The translations under genes were made by a program, and so were the position numbers. From positions 1-42,374 of the forward strand of contig JAHDIR010000024.1 of NCBI GenBank assembly GCA_020630675.1: a stretch of 42,374 nt of DNA, written 5' to 3'. A model generated the notes under the pieces. That model had not been told where the DNA came from. It made no database searches and saw only the letters and a program-made list of their open reading frames with translations. Positions 6,285-17,129 of the stretch are shown piece by piece. This stretch comes from Bdellovibrionales bacterium. Its GTDB lineage: Bacteria; Bdellovibrionota; Bdellovibrionia; Bdellovibrionales; UBA1609. Positions within the stretch are counted from its first letter, which is position 1, and every line of letters starts with the position of its first letter.

Positions 6285-6725
6285 GTTTTAATTTTTTAAT
6301 AGGGTCTATAAGCATCTCTAGGTGTCAGAATGTTTCCAAATGACACCCCTGAAAACGTCTCAAAGAAAGGCTTATGGGAGCACTAAGTAATTGTTTTTAC
6401 TTTATTATTGTTTCTAGTTTTTTTATATGTTGGGTCTGTGGAGGGGGTGACCTAAATTGAGTCATTGCTTCTTTAGAGGTGTTAGCTTTTTTACCACTAT
6501 GATAAAAGCAAATAAAAACAAAGGTTTACAAACACAAAAACACCTACTTTAAAGGCTTTTTTTGGAGCATGAAAAATATCCTTGGCAAAGCCCTAGAATG
6601 TCACTCAAAAGTCAGTGGGGTGACAGCTTTAATATGTAATTATTTCATACATTTAGCTGTTGCTCTCACTTTGTGTCTTGGTCTGAGACTTGCCTTACTT
6701 AAGAGCAGTAAGGAGATTATTTATT

Positions 6726-7364
6726 GTGATCAAACTCATATCAAGAGCACTTATAGTTGTAGTTGTTAGTTTAGTTTTGCAGGCTTGTGGTAAGCTAGCC
6801 CCTGAACTAAGTTGTAATATGGCGAGAAACTCACAAAAGCAGCGTGTTGCTTGGACAGATGCTCGTTTACCAGTAAAGCTTTATATCCATAACTCGGTCC
6901 CTAGAAAGCATCATGAAGACTTAAAAAAGGCCGTTGAGTTTTGGAACAATAAATCTAACCAAGAGCTTTTTGAGATAGTTAGTTTCTTTACGGATGGCAA
7001 TAGCTCTCCTAAAAGAGATGGTTATAATATGATTTCTTGGAAAGACACTTGGGAGTCTGAGAACTCAACAGAGCAAGCACGAACTCAATTAAATTGGTCT
7101 AAAACGTCTTTATACGAAGCAGACATTGTAGTGAACGACCATAACTTTGATTATGCGACTTTTGATGAAGAGTTAAAGGGTAAGATCGTAGATTTTACCA
7201 GCTTAATGATACATGAGTTGGGTCATGTTTTAGGTTTGGCCCATAATGAGGATCAATCCAGTGTTATGAATACTAAATTAGCCTATGGTGAAGATCGCCA
7301 GGAAACTGAGAATATTGTCGATGTGAAATCATTATCTTGTGAATATGACATGAAAGACATTTAA
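6726..7364 (+). CDS. Matrixin-like zinc metalloprotease lipoprotein
   Basis: The protein has the metzincin zinc motif HExxHxxGxxH-type, H163-E164-L-G-H167...H173 (HELGHVLGLAH), followed by a Met-turn SVMN with Met181. This places it with matrixin/M10-like peptidases. The N-terminus is a lipoprotein signal: a short positive region, a Val-rich core and the lipobox LQAC with Cys21, so it is probably an outer-membrane-anchored protease facing the periplasm or outside. The start chosen is GTG 6726, preceded by TAAGGAG ten bases upstream. A longer frame from TTG 6690 would add 12 residues and has no ribosome binding site. At 212 aa it has only a minimal catalytic domain, with no visible propeptide. 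Targets are unknown; prey or self-surface proteins are possibilities (inference). Confidence 0.85.
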   Translation: MIKLISRALIVVVVSLVLQACGKLAPELSCNMARNSQKQRVAWTDARLPVKLYIHNSVPRKHHEDLKKAVEFWNNKSNQELFEIVSFFTDGNSSPKRDGYNMISWKDTWESENSTEQARTQLNWSKTSLYEADIVVNDHNFDYATFDEELKGKIVDFTSLMIHELGHVLGLAHNEDQSSVMNTKLAYGEDRQETENIVDVKSLSCEYDMKDI

Positions 7365-9403: not shown

Positions 9404-11656
9404 GTGCCTTTAACTTCAAAATTATTCTTTCATTTTTTAGTGTTCATTTTTGTGTTCATTTTCAGTTCGCAAGTTTTTGCTTTATTAGACGTTGCAGGAA
9501 AAGGAAATGTTGAAGACCGAAGAGAACTAAAATTACTGTACACCTTTGATGAAGCTAGCAATGCGAATTTAATTCTTAATCAAGTTCATAAAAATGATTT
9601 ATCTCATCCAACTCACCTTGTTATCAGAGGAAATAGATCCAGTGCTGTTCTATCTGAAGGAAGCCTTAATTTTCAAAAAAATGCCATCTTAAACAGAACA
9701 GAATCAAGAATAGTGAATGCTGATATTGGCGCCGAACTTAATGATGACACTTTAGTCACCATAGATCTTAAAAAAGAGATTGCAAGAAACTATCTTCGGC
9801 AAGCCGTTTATTTAGAGTCGCAAGGTGTCGTCGAATTTAACAACCTCTGTAGCAATGATAAGGAAGCTACACTGCAATTTTTTTTTAAACCTAGAAATGA
9901 AAATTATTCCTCAGCCACATCAAACCTTTTTAGACTACAAAACCCAACGTCAGAAATGAGTTCCTTTCATTTGAATCAAGAATTTAATCAACAACGGCTT
10001 AAAATTAAAGTGAACTCTTCAACTTCAAAATTTAGAAGGAATGACTTAGATTTTACTGGTGTTCAAAATGAGGCCATAGTTTCTGTGAGTGAAAATAAAA
10101 AAATAGATAAGTACTTTTTGTTGCACTCGCCCGCAGGTAAAGAGGGTTGGTTCAGCCAAGATGAGAGCTCAAGTGGTGGCAATAGTATAAAAAAAATCAA
10201 TAATTTTTCAGGTTCAAAATTACTTATAGGAACAGCGAACTTTAAGTACGGTGTTGGAGTTTCAGATAAAATCAATCAGTTAAATCTTATTAATAATGAT
10301 GAGGATCTCAGAGAGTTTATTCAATACAATGCTGGGGGCTATGTTGGCTCTATCGAACAGATCGCATTTTATTGCCGTAAAACAACACAGTCTGAGGCTT
10401 TGGGCGGCGAGTATTTAGACACTTCGAGAATTAAGGTCACCCCAAGTTTAACAGGTGAGCCCACCCAGGCAGAGAAAGTAGCGGTTAGATTACTCAGTTT
10501 AATTGCTAAAAAGAAAATACCTATTGATGCTGGCATTGTGAAAGATGCCGCTGTTCATATTGGCCGCGGGGACTACAAAAAAGCTGCGCGTATCGGAGTT
10601 GAACTTCCAGATTTTTATAATAACACAGTCAAAGAAATGGGCTTGAAAATGTCCAACCGTGAAGAGTCGGTGGATGTTCCTCTGAATGACTTTGCTGCCA
10701 CTATGGTGGGGGTGGTTAGAGATCAAATAAACGCCAAAGAGCTTTTAACGGGAAATTTTTATTATCGTGGGCATCGCTTAGTGGGTGTACCTGCCGACTT
10801 GAAAACTCATATTTTGCAATCAAATATCCATTACAATGAGCTTGATAAACAAGGTTATGACTTAAAAAAAGCTTTAGTGCGTGTTGATGGACAAAAAATA
10901 TTAGATCGAAAAATGCTTCCAATAAGTCACCCAGACCCCGCAGGAGTTTTAACCTCACGAGCTTATTTATCAGCACACGCAGTCGCTGGTACAAATAGGC
11001 GTCAAGTGGAGTATGCCTTTAAGGAGTTTATGTGTTTGGAAATGAGTGAGGTTGCCGACACTGAAGTTTCTGACTTGAGGGTTGGGCGTGATATTGATCG
11101 GTTTCCTGCCAACAGCAATAAAAAATACCAAACTAGCTGTAAAGGTTGTCACACAGTTATGGATGGGTTTCGAGGAGCTTTTGCAAAAATAGATTTTCAT
11201 CCTAGCAGAAACTTCGTTATGCATGGTGATCAGCATAAAATTAATCGGGTAAAGATCGGTAAAGACCACTTTGATTATCCAAAAGATAAAAACATAGAAA
11301 GTATATCTTACAAGGTCAACCATAATGAATTTGTTTTCCCTAATGGTTATGTCACTCGTGATGATTCTTTTTATAATTACGCCAACCGTGGATCAAATAA
11401 AGTTTTGTTAGGTTGGAGGTCACCAGCAAGTAAGGGCTACGGAATTGGTCAGTTTGGTCAAATGATATCAGAAAGTAAACGCTTTAGTCAGTGCATGGTT
11501 AAGCGAGTTTTTGAAGCCATTTGCCCTGTAAATATTAATGAAAATATCCTTTCTAAATTAGAAAATTATGTCAACGACTTTGAAAAGTCTGGCTATAACA
11601 TGAAAGCCTTATTTATAGAGGCGGCGGTGAGTCCTCTTTGTTTGGGAGGCAATTAA
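9404..11656 (+). CDS. Secreted LamG-like / DUF1592-DUF1588-type c-heme protein
   Basis: The N-terminus is a signal peptide ending near VFA (residue 26). Residues ~30-330 alternate short beta-like segments with LLYTFDEA near the start and VGSIEQIAFYCR near the end, as in concanavalin A-like/LamG folds. From ~355 the pattern follows planctomycete-type DUF1592/1588/1585 proteins: RDQINAKELLTGNFYY, then AGVLTSRAYLSAHAVAGTNRRQVE, shown here as AGVLTSRAYLS and GTNRRQVE, a CxxCH heme site C579-K-G-C582-H583 followed by MDGF, and a C-terminal helical region (FSQCMVKRVFEAIC). It is the first gene of a tightly packed cassette with the next three. The GTG start at 9404 lacks a strong ribosome binding site and is uncertain. 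Domain names are from memory of pattern, not a search. Confidence 0.7.
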   Translation: MPLTSKLFFHFLVFIFVFIFSSQVFALLDVAGKGNVEDRRELKLLYTFDEASNANLILNQVHKNDLSHPTHLVIRGNRSSAVLSEGSLNFQKNAILNRTESRIVNADIGAELNDDTLVTIDLKKEIARNYLRQAVYLESQGVVEFNNLCSNDKEATLQFFFKPRNENYSSATSNLFRLQNPTSEMSSFHLNQEFNQQRLKIKVNSSTSKFRRNDLDFTGVQNEAIVSVSENKKIDKYFLLHSPAGKEGWFSQDESSSGGNSIKKINNFSGSKLLIGTANFKYGVGVSDKINQLNLINNDEDLREFIQYNAGGYVGSIEQIAFYCRKTTQSEALGGEYLDTSRIKVTPSLTGEPTQAEKVAVRLLSLIAKKKIPIDAGIVKDAAVHIGRGDYKKAARIGVELPDFYNNTVKEMGLKMSNREESVDVPLNDFAATMVGVVRDQINAKELLTGNFYYRGHRLVGVPADLKTHILQSNIHYNELDKQGYDLKKALVRVDGQKILDRKMLPISHPDPAGVLTSRAYLSAHAVAGTNRRQVEYAFKEFMCLEMSEVADTEVSDLRVGRDIDRFPANSNKKYQTSCKGCHTVMDGFRGAFAKIDFHPSRNFVMHGDQHKINRVKIGKDHFDYPKDKNIESISYKVNHNEFVFPNGYVTRDDSFYNYANRGSNKVLLGWRSPASKGYGIGQFGQMISESKRFSQCMVKRVFEAICPVNINENILSKLENYVNDFEKSGYNMKALFIEAAVSPLCLGGN

Positions 11657-11657
11657 G

Positions 11658-12296
11658 TTGAATTTAAAAATAAAAATCCCCACACTCTTGTTTTTAAGCC
11701 TACTTGTCTTCACGATGCAAAACTGCGGAGAGTACCACTCTATGCAAGACTCTGATTACAGTTCCTCATTTCTTAGTGATGAAGACCTTTACGGGGAAGG
11801 ACAGCGAGTTCCTTTTCAGATGCTTTCTAAAAAACAAGTTCTTTCCAGTTTAGTGACTGTGGCTGGTCTTCGAGAGGCCGATGAGGCTTTAAAAACCACC
11901 AGCTTAAAGTTAAGCCCGATATTATCAGAGAAGTCAGAAGTGATTAAATATAATTCTCCTCGAGGAATGACCTATGCCAATATCGCAGGTGACACTTGCA
12001 GACAGCTGATTGTTCAAGAAAAATTAGAAAAAAATAAAAGGCTGATCACCTATGGGTTGCCAATCAATATATCTTTAATCTCACCTCAAGAAATTGAAAA
12101 TACAATTCGCTCGTTTGCCCGATCTTTTTGGAGTCGTAATGAAACTGTTGAAGAACTCCAAATTATCAAACAAAGTTTACTGGAGTTTAAAAATGTTAGG
12201 GAAGTGGCCAGCCTTAAAGAAGAAGAAAGAGCTGAGCGCCAAACTCTTTTTTTATGTACATCAATGCTTTCAGCTTTAGAGGCCATAACCTATTAA
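11658..12296 (+). CDS. Hypothetical lipoprotein of the heme cassette
   Basis: A signal peptide with a hydrophobic core (LLFLSLLVFTM) ends in QNC-G, giving a probable lipid-modified Cys23. Asn at -1 is unusual for E. coli lipoboxes, but the same NCG ending occurs in the fourth gene of this cassette. The mature ~190 residues are mainly helical, with a single later Cys pair (DTCRQL and LFLCTS), and contain no heme motif or known domain. TTG 11658 begins one base after the upstream stop, with GGGAGG about eight bases before it. The tight spacing indicates co-expression with the cytochrome-like genes. A structural or assembly partner is plausible (inference). Confidence 0.7.
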   Translation: MNLKIKIPTLLFLSLLVFTMQNCGEYHSMQDSDYSSSFLSDEDLYGEGQRVPFQMLSKKQVLSSLVTVAGLREADEALKTTSLKLSPILSEKSEVIKYNSPRGMTYANIAGDTCRQLIVQEKLEKNKRLITYGLPINISLISPQEIENTIRSFARSFWSRNETVEELQIIKQSLLEFKNVREVASLKEEERAERQTLFLCTSMLSALEAITY

Positions 12297-12308
12297 GGGG
12301 AAAAAATA

Positions 12309-13694
12309 ATGAAAAAAATATTTAAAAAAAAGATTCCCTTTTGGGCCGAATGTGGTCATAAAAAACCGGTGACTCGTCGTGAGTTATTATCTTTAACAGG
12401 AGGAGCTTTTGTCGCCAGTATGGCCTCACCAACCTTACTCCATGCCCTCACCACAGCCCAATGCCCACCCACGCAGCCCTCACAAGGAATGATCCCTTTT
12501 TTCTCCCTTCATTTGTCAGGTGGTGCAGCGATGTCTTCAAACTTTTTTCCCATGGGCAAAGATGGTTCGCCCATTAAAGATCGATCAAGAATGGGTCTAG
12601 GTTTAGGAGATATTCCTATAGAAAAGGCATTTGGGGGAGCTACTTTTGCTGGAAATGGAATTAGTAAAATATTAACGGGCATGAAATCACAGATGGGGAG
12701 TGCCGAAGAAAAGACGTCTTTTGTAGGATTGTGTGTAAGCTCTTTTGACGATTCGGATAAAAATAGATTTGATCCCACCGGGCTATTGCTTCATACCGGC
12801 TATTACGGAAACTATTTACCGCAAATAAATAGTTTGCCCGGGACAAAAATGAATATTCAGTCAGCTATGATTAAGCCAACAACTCCTTTTTTAGTGAAAA
12901 CCGTTAGCGATATGGAGAATGTTCTCAACTTATCAGGAAGCATGAAGAATTTAAGTAAAAATGAAAAATTTCAAATTGGAAAACTCATTTCTAAACTCAA
13001 CCGTTCACAGTTAAAAAAAATTTCAAGAGCTCCCTCAAGTGCGAGTATTAAAAAAGTATTTGAATGTGCAGGGTTGAAAAATGAGGCCTTGCTAAAGCAA
13101 GGGGGGGCTGATGTAAACCCCTTTGCTAGCCAAAGTAAACATAGAAGTCGTTTTTCAAGTATTTGGAGAAATCAAACTTTATATGGAGCGATGGCCTATA
13201 ATACATTGCTGACACAAAGTGGTCCGGCCCATATTGCTTTGGGGGGCTACGACTACCATAACGGAACAAGAACTAGAGGTGACCAAATGGATTTACAGGC
13301 GGGACAACTCATTGGACGTCTTATTGCATCTGCCGATTATTTACAAAAGCCAATTTTCATCATGGTCAGTTCTGATGGCGCTACGGGTTCTCCAAACTCT
13401 AGAGCATTAGATGCGCCTTGGACCACTGATTATGGGCGGGCCAGTAGTGTTTATATGATTTCTTATCACCCCACCAAAAGGCCAACCACTTCAAAAAACC
13501 AACTAGGAAGTTTGCTAGATTCTCAAGCGGTTGATGAGAGTTTTATTTTAGGTAAAGAGCCTGAAAGAGCTGCTTTAGGGGTGTTTGCTAACTACTGTTC
13601 TTTAATTGGTCGAATGGACTTATTGGATAAGTTGCCAAGAAAGCCTTTTGAAGCCCATGAATTAGAGCAAGTTTTGGCTTTTCATAAAGGGTAA
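12309..13694 (+). CDS. Tat-exported DUF1501-like protein
   Basis: A long n-region precedes a twin-arginine motif, T22-R23-R24-E-L-L, and a hydrophobic segment ending in an AxA-like site, so export by Tat is likely. The mature part resembles DUF1501 proteins of the alkaline-phosphatase/sulfatase superfamily: near residues 310-365 it has GGYDYHNG, an acidic helix with GDQMDLQAGQLIGRL, and IFIMVSSDG, in the order of the family's GGWDTH...D...VVVMSEFG block. The usual EFGRT is replaced by SDGATG, so metal binding and activity are uncertain. Planctomycetes pair DUF1501 genes with cytochrome-like DUF1549/1553 or DUF1592 genes, and this arrangement is similar. ATG 12309 follows AAGGGGA. It lies 12 bp after the lipoprotein and 7 bp before the next gene. 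Confidence 0.75.
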   Translation: MKKIFKKKIPFWAECGHKKPVTRRELLSLTGGAFVASMASPTLLHALTTAQCPPTQPSQGMIPFFSLHLSGGAAMSSNFFPMGKDGSPIKDRSRMGLGLGDIPIEKAFGGATFAGNGISKILTGMKSQMGSAEEKTSFVGLCVSSFDDSDKNRFDPTGLLLHTGYYGNYLPQINSLPGTKMNIQSAMIKPTTPFLVKTVSDMENVLNLSGSMKNLSKNEKFQIGKLISKLNRSQLKKISRAPSSASIKKVFECAGLKNEALLKQGGADVNPFASQSKHRSRFSSIWRNQTLYGAMAYNTLLTQSGPAHIALGGYDYHNGTRTRGDQMDLQAGQLIGRLIASADYLQKPIFIMVSSDGATGSPNSRALDAPWTTDYGRASSVYMISYHPTKRPTTSKNQLGSLLDSQAVDESFILGKEPERAALGVFANYCSLIGRMDLLDKLPRKPFEAHELEQVLAFHKG

Positions 13695-13701
13695 TGATAA
13701 T

Positions 13702-14925
13702 TTGAAACAAGCGAATATATATTTTTCATTTTTATTTGGTGCCCTTGTTCTTGGTTTTTATACCAACTGTGGAGGAAGCTTTAGTGCTCAAGGAAACTTA
13801 AGTAGCACATCTTCTTTAGGCGGGGATTTCTGTGATACTGTACTAAACAAAGCCTTTAATAGTGGAATTTACTCTTTTTTAAGAACTAATTGTAAAGCCT
13901 GTCATGAAAGCGGTCCAGGACAAGGCTTGTTTGCTAACAGTGATCAAAATATAGCCTTTGCCACGTTTAAAAGCTTTGGGTTTCAACGTATCAGTGAAAA
14001 TGCAGTTGATAATTCTCATGCCAGTGGTTTTACCGGCGATCCACTGAAGCCTCAGGTCAATGAATTGAACCAATCATGGGCAAATACACAAAAGGAATAC
14101 AATGAATGTTTAGCCAGTAGAAACTCTAAGGCCAAGAGCCAGTTTGATTTATTAACTTCTGAAGTGTCTTTTATGGTCAATGACGAGTGGCAGACTTTAT
14201 CTTGGGATTTAAATCACAATCGTTTTCCAGGAAATGAAGAACACACCATAGACGCAACTTTTAAAGTCGATGTTAAAAATTATTATGGGGAAGGAGAGCA
14301 AAAACCTGAAGAGCCCATTGGTCTTCTTTTGAGTCAGCCTCGTCTCGCCTTCACTGGTGAGCAAAATAAAATTTATATGGAAGGTGTTTTGCTTCAATCT
14401 AATGGTGTCGCCTTGGAGGATTTTGAGGCCTGGTCTCAACTAATTCTTATTGTTGATAAGCAAAAAGAGTCAATGGGAATAGTTCCTGACTCCGTCATTA
14501 TTAATGAGAAAGACCGAAATTTTATTTATGTATACTCCGATCAGCAGCCAAGTATTGACCGGCTCAATTTATCTTTTATCAATATTATTAATAATACAGG
14601 GGGAGCCAATGACCACCTTGTTCCTGATGAACCTAACACAATTGATGCCACAGAAGAAAAACCAATTATAACCAGAAATATCACCTATGCCGATCTTACT
14701 GGAATGGGAGAGTTTGCTGTTTTTAAAAATAGTTGCTACAGGTGTCATGGCAATGGCGAACAAAGAGGTGGTTTTGCCATTGATAATATCGCTCAGGCAA
14801 AAACTAGACGCGATTTAATTATTAAAAGTATAAATGACCCCATAGAACCCATGCCGTTGGGCGGGAGGTTAAGTTTAAAAGACATTGCCATCATTGAGAA
14901 ATGGGTCAGTGATGGTGCACTTTAA
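13702..14925 (+). CDS. Diheme c-type cytochrome-like lipoprotein
   Basis: The signal peptide ends in FYTNC-G with Cys23 as the likely lipidated residue. Two heme c sites are visible: C64-K-A-C67-H68 and C345-Y-R-C348-H349. The second is followed by Met384 in EPMPLGG and the helix IAIIEKWVSDGA, which is the usual tail of a small cytochrome c domain with Met as axial ligand. Between the hemes, residues ~150-320 look like a beta-rich domain of copper-dependent monooxygenase or immunoglobulin style, unassigned. TTG 13702 starts seven bases after the DUF1501-like gene. As an outer-membrane or periplasmic electron carrier it could accept electrons from its cassette partners (inference). Confidence 0.8.
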   Translation: MKQANIYFSFLFGALVLGFYTNCGGSFSAQGNLSSTSSLGGDFCDTVLNKAFNSGIYSFLRTNCKACHESGPGQGLFANSDQNIAFATFKSFGFQRISENAVDNSHASGFTGDPLKPQVNELNQSWANTQKEYNECLASRNSKAKSQFDLLTSEVSFMVNDEWQTLSWDLNHNRFPGNEEHTIDATFKVDVKNYYGEGEQKPEEPIGLLLSQPRLAFTGEQNKIYMEGVLLQSNGVALEDFEAWSQLILIVDKQKESMGIVPDSVIINEKDRNFIYVYSDQQPSIDRLNLSFINIINNTGGANDHLVPDEPNTIDATEEKPIITRNITYADLTGMGEFAVFKNSCYRCHGNGEQRGGFAIDNIAQAKTRRDLIIKSINDPIEPMPLGGRLSLKDIAIIEKWVSDGAL

Positions 14926-14980: not shown

Positions 14981-15841
14981 TTAAGCTTTTTTAACTTGTA
15001 TCACTAACATTTGAGCATTGACATCATAAGACTCAATAACTTGTTTTTTATCGACAGGGTGCTCAAGAGCTAGGACATCGCGAGTGCTTTGATAATTATG
15101 GGTTTCAATTTTTCGACCAATACCTTCATGTTGTTGGCTGTGTGCTCTTTGAGCAGAAACTGTGAACTGATTGGGCTTAATAATGACATTAACATTTTTA
15201 CGGTCATGCTCAGGAACATTTAATAGAAGTGTATAAAACTCATCATCTTCAACAAGCTGAGCTTGGTAGCCACTGAGTTGATAGAAAGCATCACCAGGAA
15301 TAGTTGGGTTTTCAATAAAACGACTAATAATTTCTTTTTCTCTTAAAGCTACAGACTTCAAAGCTTGGTCCTCTGATTTTTTATACATCTCAAGATTAAA
15401 CGAATGGCGGTCCTGTAGCTCTTTTAAATGCTTTCGTTGAAGCTTATTGCCCTCATTTTTATAATAGGCATCTAATTCGTTTAACTTTTGTTTATAATAA
15501 GTTTTCTTTTTTTCAAGGGCTTTTGAAAGCTCATCTATTCGTAGCTCACCTTTTGTCTTAATGTGTTCGTAAGTTTTATTATGGTTGTCTCTTATTTTTG
15601 TTATCGCGTATTGAGCCTTGCTGTTTTCCAGCTCAATATTCTTATGACCAACACTTTTAATATGATTAATGGCAGCTCTTTCTTCACTTTTGGCTTTTCT
15701 TAGTTTTTCATTATAAGCTTTGCCAATATTTTGAATTTGTTTTTCTTTTTCTTGGATAATTCGCTCTTGGCGATTGATTTGTTCGTTTTTATGATCAGAA
15801 AAATGACTGCCAAGGGATTTTGAAAAAATGTCACTCGACAT
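14981..15841 (-). CDS. Coiled-coil protein with C-terminal Hsp20/alpha-crystallin-like domain
   Basis: Residues ~20-175 are a long, highly charged coiled coil (for example EKEKQIQNIGKAYNEKLRKA). Residues ~195-286 read as a small-heat-shock domain: DEFYTLLLNVPEHDRKNVNV, a strand IKPNQFTVSAQR, then a variable loop, VLALEHPVDKKQVIESY and the closing NAQMLVIQVKK. This corresponds to the family's order of beta strands with the A-x-x-x-n-G-x-L element changed to DVNAQML. Classical sHsps have only a short N-terminal arm, so a ~150-residue coiled coil in its place is unusual. AGGAG precedes ATG 15841. The upstream gene stops eight bases before, so the two form an operon. A holdase or cytoskeletal role is possible. 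Confidence 0.65.
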   Translation of the reverse strand: MSSDIFSKSLGSHFSDHKNEQINRQERIIQEKEKQIQNIGKAYNEKLRKAKSEERAAINHIKSVGHKNIELENSKAQYAITKIRDNHNKTYEHIKTKGELRIDELSKALEKKKTYYKQKLNELDAYYKNEGNKLQRKHLKELQDRHSFNLEMYKKSEDQALKSVALREKEIISRFIENPTIPGDAFYQLSGYQAQLVEDDEFYTLLLNVPEHDRKNVNVIIKPNQFTVSAQRAHSQQHEGIGRKIETHNYQSTRDVLALEHPVDKKQVIESYDVNAQMLVIQVKKA

Positions 15842-16262: not shown

Positions 16263-16291
16263 TGACATGATATGTCGCTGCAGCCTATGAT
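16263..16291 (+). promoter_or_regulatory. Near-consensus sigma70 promoter
   Basis: TTGACA (16263-16268) is followed after exactly 17 bp by TATGAT (16286-16291): a perfect -35 and five of six -10 bases. Transcription would begin near 16298. This lies downstream of the ATG at 16272 and so excludes it, leaving ATG 16320 as the start of the next gene with a ~22-base leader. Confidence 0.75.
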
Positions 16292-16319
16292 AAAAGTCGA
16301 CAAAAGTTGGGGTTTTCAG

Positions 16320-17129
16320 ATGGATAGCGAACAAGAAAAAATTATTATCGATAAAGACAAAGGTCTGGTCTTTGACAATGAACAAGAGCTATTAGAATTC
16401 TTTGCACCAGATATTAATAAGTTTGAAGAAGAGCTATTTCATTTACGATCCAAAAAAGATATTCCTGAAAAGCAGTTTACTAAGTTTGAAAAAAATTTGG
16501 AAGAACTCATAGAAAGCCCTGATGAGGTTTGGGAAGAGCTAGATTCCACCGAACAAGAAAACTTAGCTGTTTTTTTAAAGTACTTCCCTGAGCAAAAGGC
16601 CTACCATATTGCTCTCACTTATCTTACTGATGACATTCCTAGCTTTATTTATCTTCATTTTCCCAGTAATGATGAAGAGCTAATTGAAAAGTACCGTCGT
16701 GGGCAGTTAATTTATGATGCCGAATCAGATATTTCTGTTTTGGGGGCCATTGATGGTGACTCCTTGATGGAGGGGGATAGCTTAGCTCGAGGGCTTTATG
16801 AAGCGATGTTAAAATTAAGAAGCTCTGATGATATACCTGAGGATCACTTTATAGATTACGCCGCTTACCGAGAAGAAAGTATTGAACAGGCCGATGAAAT
16901 TTGGCGATCAAATAATTCTGCAGGACATGTTTTGGTGACTTTTATTAAAGAGTACTCTGTTGAAGGGCAAAGTAACTTCTTTTATGTGGCAGTGACCCAA
17001 GAAGATGGCCATTCAAATACTCATGCTTTGTTATTTACTTTTCCCACACAAGACACCTCACTGGTTGAACGTTACCGTAACGGCGAAAACTTACAGGCCG
17101 ATGAAGTCGTTCAGGAATCTTCCCACTAA
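16320..17129 (+). CDS. Acidic cytoplasmic protein with duplicated ~95-residue domain
   Basis: The protein has two related halves. Residues 39-132 and 163-260 share the order LxLRSxxDIPExxF, a charged helix with DE(V/I)W, a segment ending (F)xKxxS/P, a short beta block and a closing FPxxD...E(R/K)YRxG. This is an internal tandem duplication. The N-terminal 35 residues are very acidic, and there is no signal peptide or membrane segment. The fold is not recognised; it could resemble the PBECR-type nuclease-fold domains described in phages, but I cannot support this. ATG 16320 is preceded by TTGGGG and fits the promoter at 16263-16291. It is divergent from the sHsp-fusion operon. Confidence 0.7.
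   Translation: MDSEQEKIIIDKDKGLVFDNEQELLEFFAPDINKFEEELFHLRSKKDIPEKQFTKFEKNLEELIESPDEVWEELDSTEQENLAVFLKYFPEQKAYHIALTYLTDDIPSFIYLHFPSNDEELIEKYRRGQLIYDAESDISVLGAIDGDSLMEGDSLARGLYEAMLKLRSSDDIPEDHFIDYAAYREESIEQADEIWRSNNSAGHVLVTFIKEYSVEGQSNFFYVAVTQEDGHSNTHALLFTFPTQDTSLVERYRNGENLQADEVVQESSH

Follow-up and report, generated by a model that had tools for sequence, protein, structure and literature searches.

What function is served by a compact set of four genes, each coding for an exported product, in the envelope of a Bdellovibrionales bacterium? The genes, here called P1 to P4, occupy positions 9404-14925 of contig JAHDIR010000024.1 (the window, 42,374 nucleotides in all), part of a host genome of 3.1 Mb in 110 contigs, and all lie on the forward strand. 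P1 (9404..11656, 750 amino acids, predicted GTG start) is read as a Sec-exported protein with a LamG/ConA-like domain, a PSD4-like stretch, a PSCyt3 (DUF1588) heme domain and PSD2 (DUF1585); P2 (11658..12296, 212 amino acids, predicted TTG start) as a lipoprotein bearing a PSD3-PSD5 half (DUF1587/DUF1595-like); P3 (12309..13694, 461 amino acids, ATG start) as a protein exported by twin-arginine translocation (Tat), with a predicted alkaline-phosphatase-superfamily fold and no Pfam family; and P4 (13702..14925, 407 amino acids, predicted TTG start) as a diheme lipoprotein. The answer that we favor, at about even chances, is that the four products form a single redox complex of the cell envelope, in which a split and diverged PSCyt3 cytochrome is joined by an alkaline-phosphatase-fold partner.

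The initial annotation had drawn four packed open reading frames, with an export signal on every product and heme motifs in P1 and P4, and these elements are all correct. The gaps are 1 bp (P1-P2), 12 bp (P2-P3) and 7 bp (P3-P4). Read from the sequence, the P1 signal is of Sec type, ending SSQVFA; those of P2 and P4 are of lipoprotein type, with Asn preceding the Cys (MQNC in P2, YTNC in P4); and P3 has a Tat signal, TRRELL, whose twin arginine R23 R24 (12375..12380) is invariant in 37/37 homologues. Genes for TatC and for a cytochrome c assembly protein are present in the host genome. Of the five CxxCH strings in a six-frame scan of the window, three fall in the cassette, one of them in P1 and two in P4, and the Cys, Cys and His of the motif are invariant in 34/34 P1 and 24/24 P4 homologues. 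Promoter and terminator scans gave no signal above shuffled sequence, and PADLOC found no defence-system match. Asn was also the commonest residue before the candidate lipobox Cys in a crude count of N-termini at fetched Bdellovibrionota loci (66 of ~156), which is unusual against the textbook Gly/Ala/Ser, although the many P2 and P4 homologues partly inflate the count.

The domain assignments rest on families because P1, P2 and P3 of the window, taken singly, give no Pfam hit at E ≤ 1 and no NCBIfam match. PSD2/DUF1585 is matched by 23 of 34 P1 homologues (best E 2.2e-7) and PSCyt3/DUF1588 (PF07627) by 11, whereas among 33 P2 homologues PSD5/DUF1595 is matched by three (best E 0.0052) and every other family by at most one. 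We therefore read the placements from hhalign comparisons against an alignment of 17 canonical PSCyt3 proteins, with P2 stripped of its signal and lipobox and controlled by 50 column-shuffled profiles; the E-values are those of single comparisons. A canonical chain, from Sphingobium herbicidovorans, runs PSD3 (residues 27-90), PSD5 (114-174), PSD4 (185-312), PSCyt3 (330-429) and PSD2 (444-510). P2 aligns to canonical residues 23-171 with a score of 46.1 (shuffled mean 11.8, maximum 16.2); its PSD3 half taken alone gives no significant alignment. P1 aligns to canonical residues 328-514, spanning PSCyt3-PSD2 (E ~7e-13), and the alignment continues through PSD4, collinear but weak. Bdellovibrionota templates give similar placements for both proteins, and P3 and P4 have no comparable alignment to the canonical proteins.

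P2 and P1 thus cover adjacent, non-overlapping parts of the canonical chain, and on these profile alignments they are one known PSCyt3 cytochrome (DUF1587/1595/1592/1588/1585) split between two genes with its halves swapped. The half that is C-terminal in unsplit proteins is encoded first here, so that the domain order of the single chain is not kept. The DUF1592/1588/1585-type C-terminus first suggested for P1 is therefore DUF1588/DUF1585-like at the family level, and P2, once listed as an extra lipoprotein, is a lipoprotein and is not extra: it is the PSD3-PSD5 half. Invariant residues of P2 are C114 and C200, and the CKGCH heme site of P1 (residues 579-583, 11138..11152) is kept in all 34 homologues.

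Unsplit relatives of this cytochrome lie in the same genome. We find four DUF1592/DUF1588 monoheme lipoproteins encoded by single genes, each immediately followed by a DUF1552 gene, and the cassette has the same layout with P3 in the DUF1552 position. Related genomes have up to 16 DUF1592/DUF1588 genes with DUF1552 close by; one genome of the window's genus has 16 DUF1588 and 16 DUF1552 matches in 3.2 Mb, as against 4 DUF1588 matches in the window's genome, a strong lineage-specific expansion. Compared with the pair of a five-domain PSCyt3 protein (PF07626-PF07637-PF07631-PF07627-PF07624) and DUF1552 (PF07586), the cassette shares the domain content of P2 plus P1, the single CxxCH, the lipid anchor (in Bdellovibrionota) and a Tat-signal-like protein of ~460 amino acids directly downstream. 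It differs in using two genes with swapped halves, in a PSD4 that is hardly recognizable, in a P3 that is no DUF1552 by profile, and in the added LamG-like domain and diheme lipoprotein. The S. herbicidovorans plasmid pMSHV operon (DUF1592-DUF1552-cytochrome c'-cytochrome b561-SDR) likewise places a PSCyt3 protein before a partner gene and then a c-type cytochrome, but its PSCyt3 protein is unsplit, and it has a class II cytochrome c and a membrane cytochrome b where the cassette has a diheme lipoprotein. On plasmid pPL62-3 of Planctomyces sp. SH-PL62 (PSCyt1-PSD3 / PSD5-PSD4-PSCyt3-PSD2 / DUF1552) the five domains are shared between two genes, as in the cassette, but the cut falls after PSD3 and not after PSD5, the order is normal and the DUF1552 is recognizable.

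The cassette is widespread. P3 was found in 158 of 369 Bdellovibrionota genomes (~43% of those examined) and in 32 of 59 close relatives. We surveyed gene order at 59 fetched loci annotated with the P1-P4 profiles, counting the order wherever two same-strand genes upstream of P3 were readable. Conservation of gene order, which the initial annotation had proposed as a check, was borne out in Bdellovibrionota: P1-P2-P3 is kept in 53/56 assessable loci, and a CxxCH is present in the next same-strand gene downstream of P3 in 56/62 cases. Of the three exceptions to the order, two keep P1 and have a larger heme lipoprotein where P2 would be, and at the third the open reading frame called at the P2 position lies on the opposite strand. 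At almost all surveyed loci the genes are separated by short gaps or overlap. In Planctomycetes the order was looked at on one plasmid, pPL62-3, which has the DUF1552-containing form. A single-sequence scan of genome contigs with P3 matched only a same-genus relative, and no phage or plasmid relatives of P3 were found. Against a same-genus homologue, with synonymous sites near saturation, the ratio of nonsynonymous to synonymous substitution (dN/dS) is 0.11 for P1, 0.07 for P3 and 0.19 for P4; for P2 dS is saturated and dN is 0.20. Because the order is kept across the phylum and the genes are under purifying selection, the cassette is more than a chance arrangement. At one place (L062 and L063) two cassettes stand in tandem, the second shorter and diverged (P1 373, P2 145 and P3 445 amino acids), with a P2 that lacks the lipobox Cys.

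The 37 homologues of the proposed partner protein, P3, have no Pfam match beyond the Tat signal, DUF1501 (PF07394) and DUF1552 (PF07586) included, and P1 and P3 profiles run against the sequences of solved structures returned nothing meaningful. The P3 model (mean predicted local distance difference test score, pLDDT, 78.5; predicted template modeling score 0.80) matches TAB5 alkaline phosphatase (Foldseek E 2.1e-4, probability 0.98) and Xac nucleotide pyrophosphatase (VIA-align Z 12.4, root-mean-square deviation 4.0 over 214 residues), followed by phosphoethanolamine transferases, sulfatases and phosphoglycerate mutase. By fold, P3 is thus predicted to belong to the alkaline phosphatase superfamily. 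Family invariants include R23 R24, G71 G72, D148, D315 Y316 H317, D328, D356 G357 and D374; residue 149 is mostly Ser/Thr and is neither in a few members.

DUF1501 is a Tat protein of unknown role found in conserved DUF1501-DUF1800 operons (PMC5122149). The C-terminal half of P3 aligns to it with collinear motifs (score 27.9, shuffled maximum 19.0; hhalign probability 8%). In this profile alignment GGYDYH (13242..13259, D315 Y316 H317 invariant) takes the position of GGWDTH, SDGATG (13371..13388, D356 G357 invariant) that of SEFGRT, and TDYG (13425..13436, D374 invariant) that of TDHG. The two families share the Tat signal, the fold class and, as far as this alignment goes, the motif order GG-x-D-x-H / S-[ED]-x-G / T-D-x-G; P3 differs in having Asp-Gly-Ala-Thr for Glu-Phe-Gly-Arg and in having lost both the His of TDHG and the first-strand Asp expected after GG. 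Because these two residues are missing, we infer that the metal site of P3 is probably changed or reduced. P3 had been called a DUF1501-like Tat protein with an altered SDGATG motif; Tat export holds, and a divergent DUF1501-like protein with the altered motif agrees with the modest score above, with no PF07394 match. We also considered P3 as a DUF1552 homologue and rejected this, since the similarity is confined to the Tat signal (core score 18.7, shuffled maximum 18.5). DUF1501 and DUF1552 resemble each other (E 2e-12) far more than either resembles P3.

The same structural matches raise the question of whether P3 is itself the enzyme. P3 could be a working secreted hydrolase or transferase, acting on phosphate or sulfate esters or on phosphoethanolamine, for which the heme proteins would serve only as anchor, regulator or protection. 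Its fold matches (Z 11-12.4) include nucleotide pyrophosphatases, phosphoethanolamine transferases and sulfatases, D148, D315, H317, D356 and D374 are invariant, and the Ser/Thr at 149 is mostly kept. We nevertheless think this unlikely: the first-strand Asp and the TDHG His are gone, residue 149 is not Ser/Thr in a few members, and three invariant heme sites in the cassette would be left without a purpose.

P4, the last gene, carries two of those sites. The first, CKACH (13891..13905), and the second, CYRCH (14734..14748), are both invariant in 24/24 homologues; the second lies in a cytochrome_CBB3-type domain (PF13442, 30.3 bits against a cut-off of 27) that 22 of the 24 match at E ≤ 0.1. 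M384 P385 is conserved in the second heme domain, and an invariant His106 in the first is a possible second ligand. The part between the hemes is variable among homologues, some of which are monoheme. Near the cassette in 14 loci we also observed a protein of ~390 amino acids, without a Pfam family, whose single CxxCH lies close to the N-terminus (YxxCxTCHYNxxGNGxLxDYGR), often together with a monoheme lipoprotein of 115-135 amino acids; the ~390-amino-acid protein was not found in the window's genome, in a search without positive control.

Heme proteins that are exported and lipid-anchored could also act as a conduit for electron transfer at the cell surface, P1 and P4 exchanging electrons with extracellular acceptors and P3 having a structural role. 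The export of all parts, the lipid anchoring and the ~390-amino-acid CxxCH protein nearby in 14 loci fit such a role. We regard it as improbable. One plus two hemes would be the whole complement, at a spacing far below that of multiheme conduits; the window's cassette has no porin gene, and the ~390-amino-acid protein was not detected in its genome by the search just described. Additionally, P3 has the lowest dN/dS of the cassette and is its most conserved gene, which would be odd for a mere scaffold.

The N-terminus of P1 is a further element that could point to function. Residues 34-336 (9503..10411) are predicted to form a LamG/ConA-like jelly roll (model mean pLDDT 87.2; VIA-align Z 16-17); Laminin_G_3 (PF13385) is matched by 5/34 P1 homologues and not by P1 of the window. 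The best structural matches are clostridial neurotoxin jelly-roll domains at ~10% identity, and arabinanase, pentraxin, neurexin and tailspike domains match too. At so low an identity, and with those other domains matching, this indicates only a common lectin-type fold and carries no implication of toxicity. Only 16 of 53 P1 homologues reach at least 590 amino acids, the remaining members having 330-530, and three of the 16 (616-618 amino acids) are of a type that, in aligned members, is long through an insertion in the C-terminal half. The LamG-like domain noted at the outset is thus real as an N-terminal domain of this P1 and is not a general part of the cassette: the jelly roll is a lineage-specific addition outside the core, and most homologues lack it. 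Directly upstream of a LamG-bearing P1, three loci have a same-strand gene of ~560-690 amino acids that, in each of the three tested, encodes FG-GAP (integrin-type) repeats; genes of similar size lie upstream at four other loci, and no such gene is present in the window.

That the cassette serves prey-surface adhesion or processing, with the heme part accessory, is very improbable: the LamG-like domain of P1, the FG-GAP gene directly upstream in some relatives and the finding of P3 only in predator-rich Bdellovibrionota (by a single-sequence scan outside the phylum) favor it, but most loci keep the core with neither LamG nor FG-GAP, and unsplit relatives are present in the non-predators Sphingobium and Planctomyces.

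Returning to the redox complex, we infer complex formation, the direction of electron flow and the oxidation of a substrate. P2, lipid-anchored, and P1, with its one heme, would together rebuild the cytochrome; P3, exported folded via Tat, would dock on it in a DUF1552-like role and probably contribute a metal site. P1, P2 and P3 would then oxidize the substrate and P4 would take the electrons away, while the LamG-like domain of P1, where present, may tether the complex to a glycan or another surface ligand. A redox role is suggested by the invariant heme sites and, by analogy, the Sphingobium operon order. Our best guess is that the substrate is carbohydrate-like, and just two things suggest it: the LamG-like domain and a study of Verrucomicrobia in which PSCyt genes are noted to have fixed partner genes, fusions to carbohydrate-binding modules (Laminin_G_3 among them), adjoining sulfatases and no known function (PMC5615132).

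Several observations weigh against this redox complex. The equivalence of P1 residues 350-505 to PSD4 is weak (score 22.9, shuffled maximum 21.5). By profile, the P3 core is not significantly similar to DUF1552 and only modestly similar to DUF1501, so that the partner role of P3 rests on position and fold; proteins of the alkaline-phosphatase fold usually hydrolyze or transfer groups, and the fold is not a redox one. P4 is absent or replaced at a few loci, and no member of the P1-P4 families has a known activity. We advance only tentatively, and well short of even chances, the fuller proposal of a phylum-wide, undescribed four-protein redox enzyme, in which a re-ordered split PSCyt3 cytochrome would engage an alkaline-phosphatase-fold protein in heme-coupled oxidation, not hydrolysis, of an envelope or prey-derived substrate.

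Other genes in the window include a predicted matrixin-type (M10) metalloprotease lipoprotein with HELGHVLGLAH (6690-7364) and, at 16272-17129, a chromosomal protein that matches PBECR2 (E 9e-15), a phage-type Barnase-EndoU-ColicinE5/D-RelE-like nuclease domain. On the reverse strand at 14981-15841, a protein with a long, charged, coiled-coil-like N-terminus ends in what reads like a small heat-shock (Hsp20) domain, with no Pfam match.

A literature search for the function of DUF1552, DUF1592, DUF1588 and DUF1501 found none, nor do the papers searched describe the four-gene form, with its split and re-ordered cytochrome and its unclassified alkaline-phosphatase-fold partner. The component families are already known and functionally unexplained, and P1-P4 appear from their sequences to be remote relatives of them. 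PSCyt, PSD, DUF1501 and DUF1552 proteins are abundant in Planctomycetes and Verrucomicrobia, with no known function in the papers found. P3, with neither a Pfam nor an NCBIfam match, represents an unrecognized alkaline-phosphatase-fold family. The cassette offers a cytochrome naturally cut into separately expressible pieces; the two halves, the proposed partner and the proposed electron acceptor each have a gene of their own. It is widespread in the phylum to which the genetically workable Bdellovibrio belongs, so the question of function becomes testable gene by gene.

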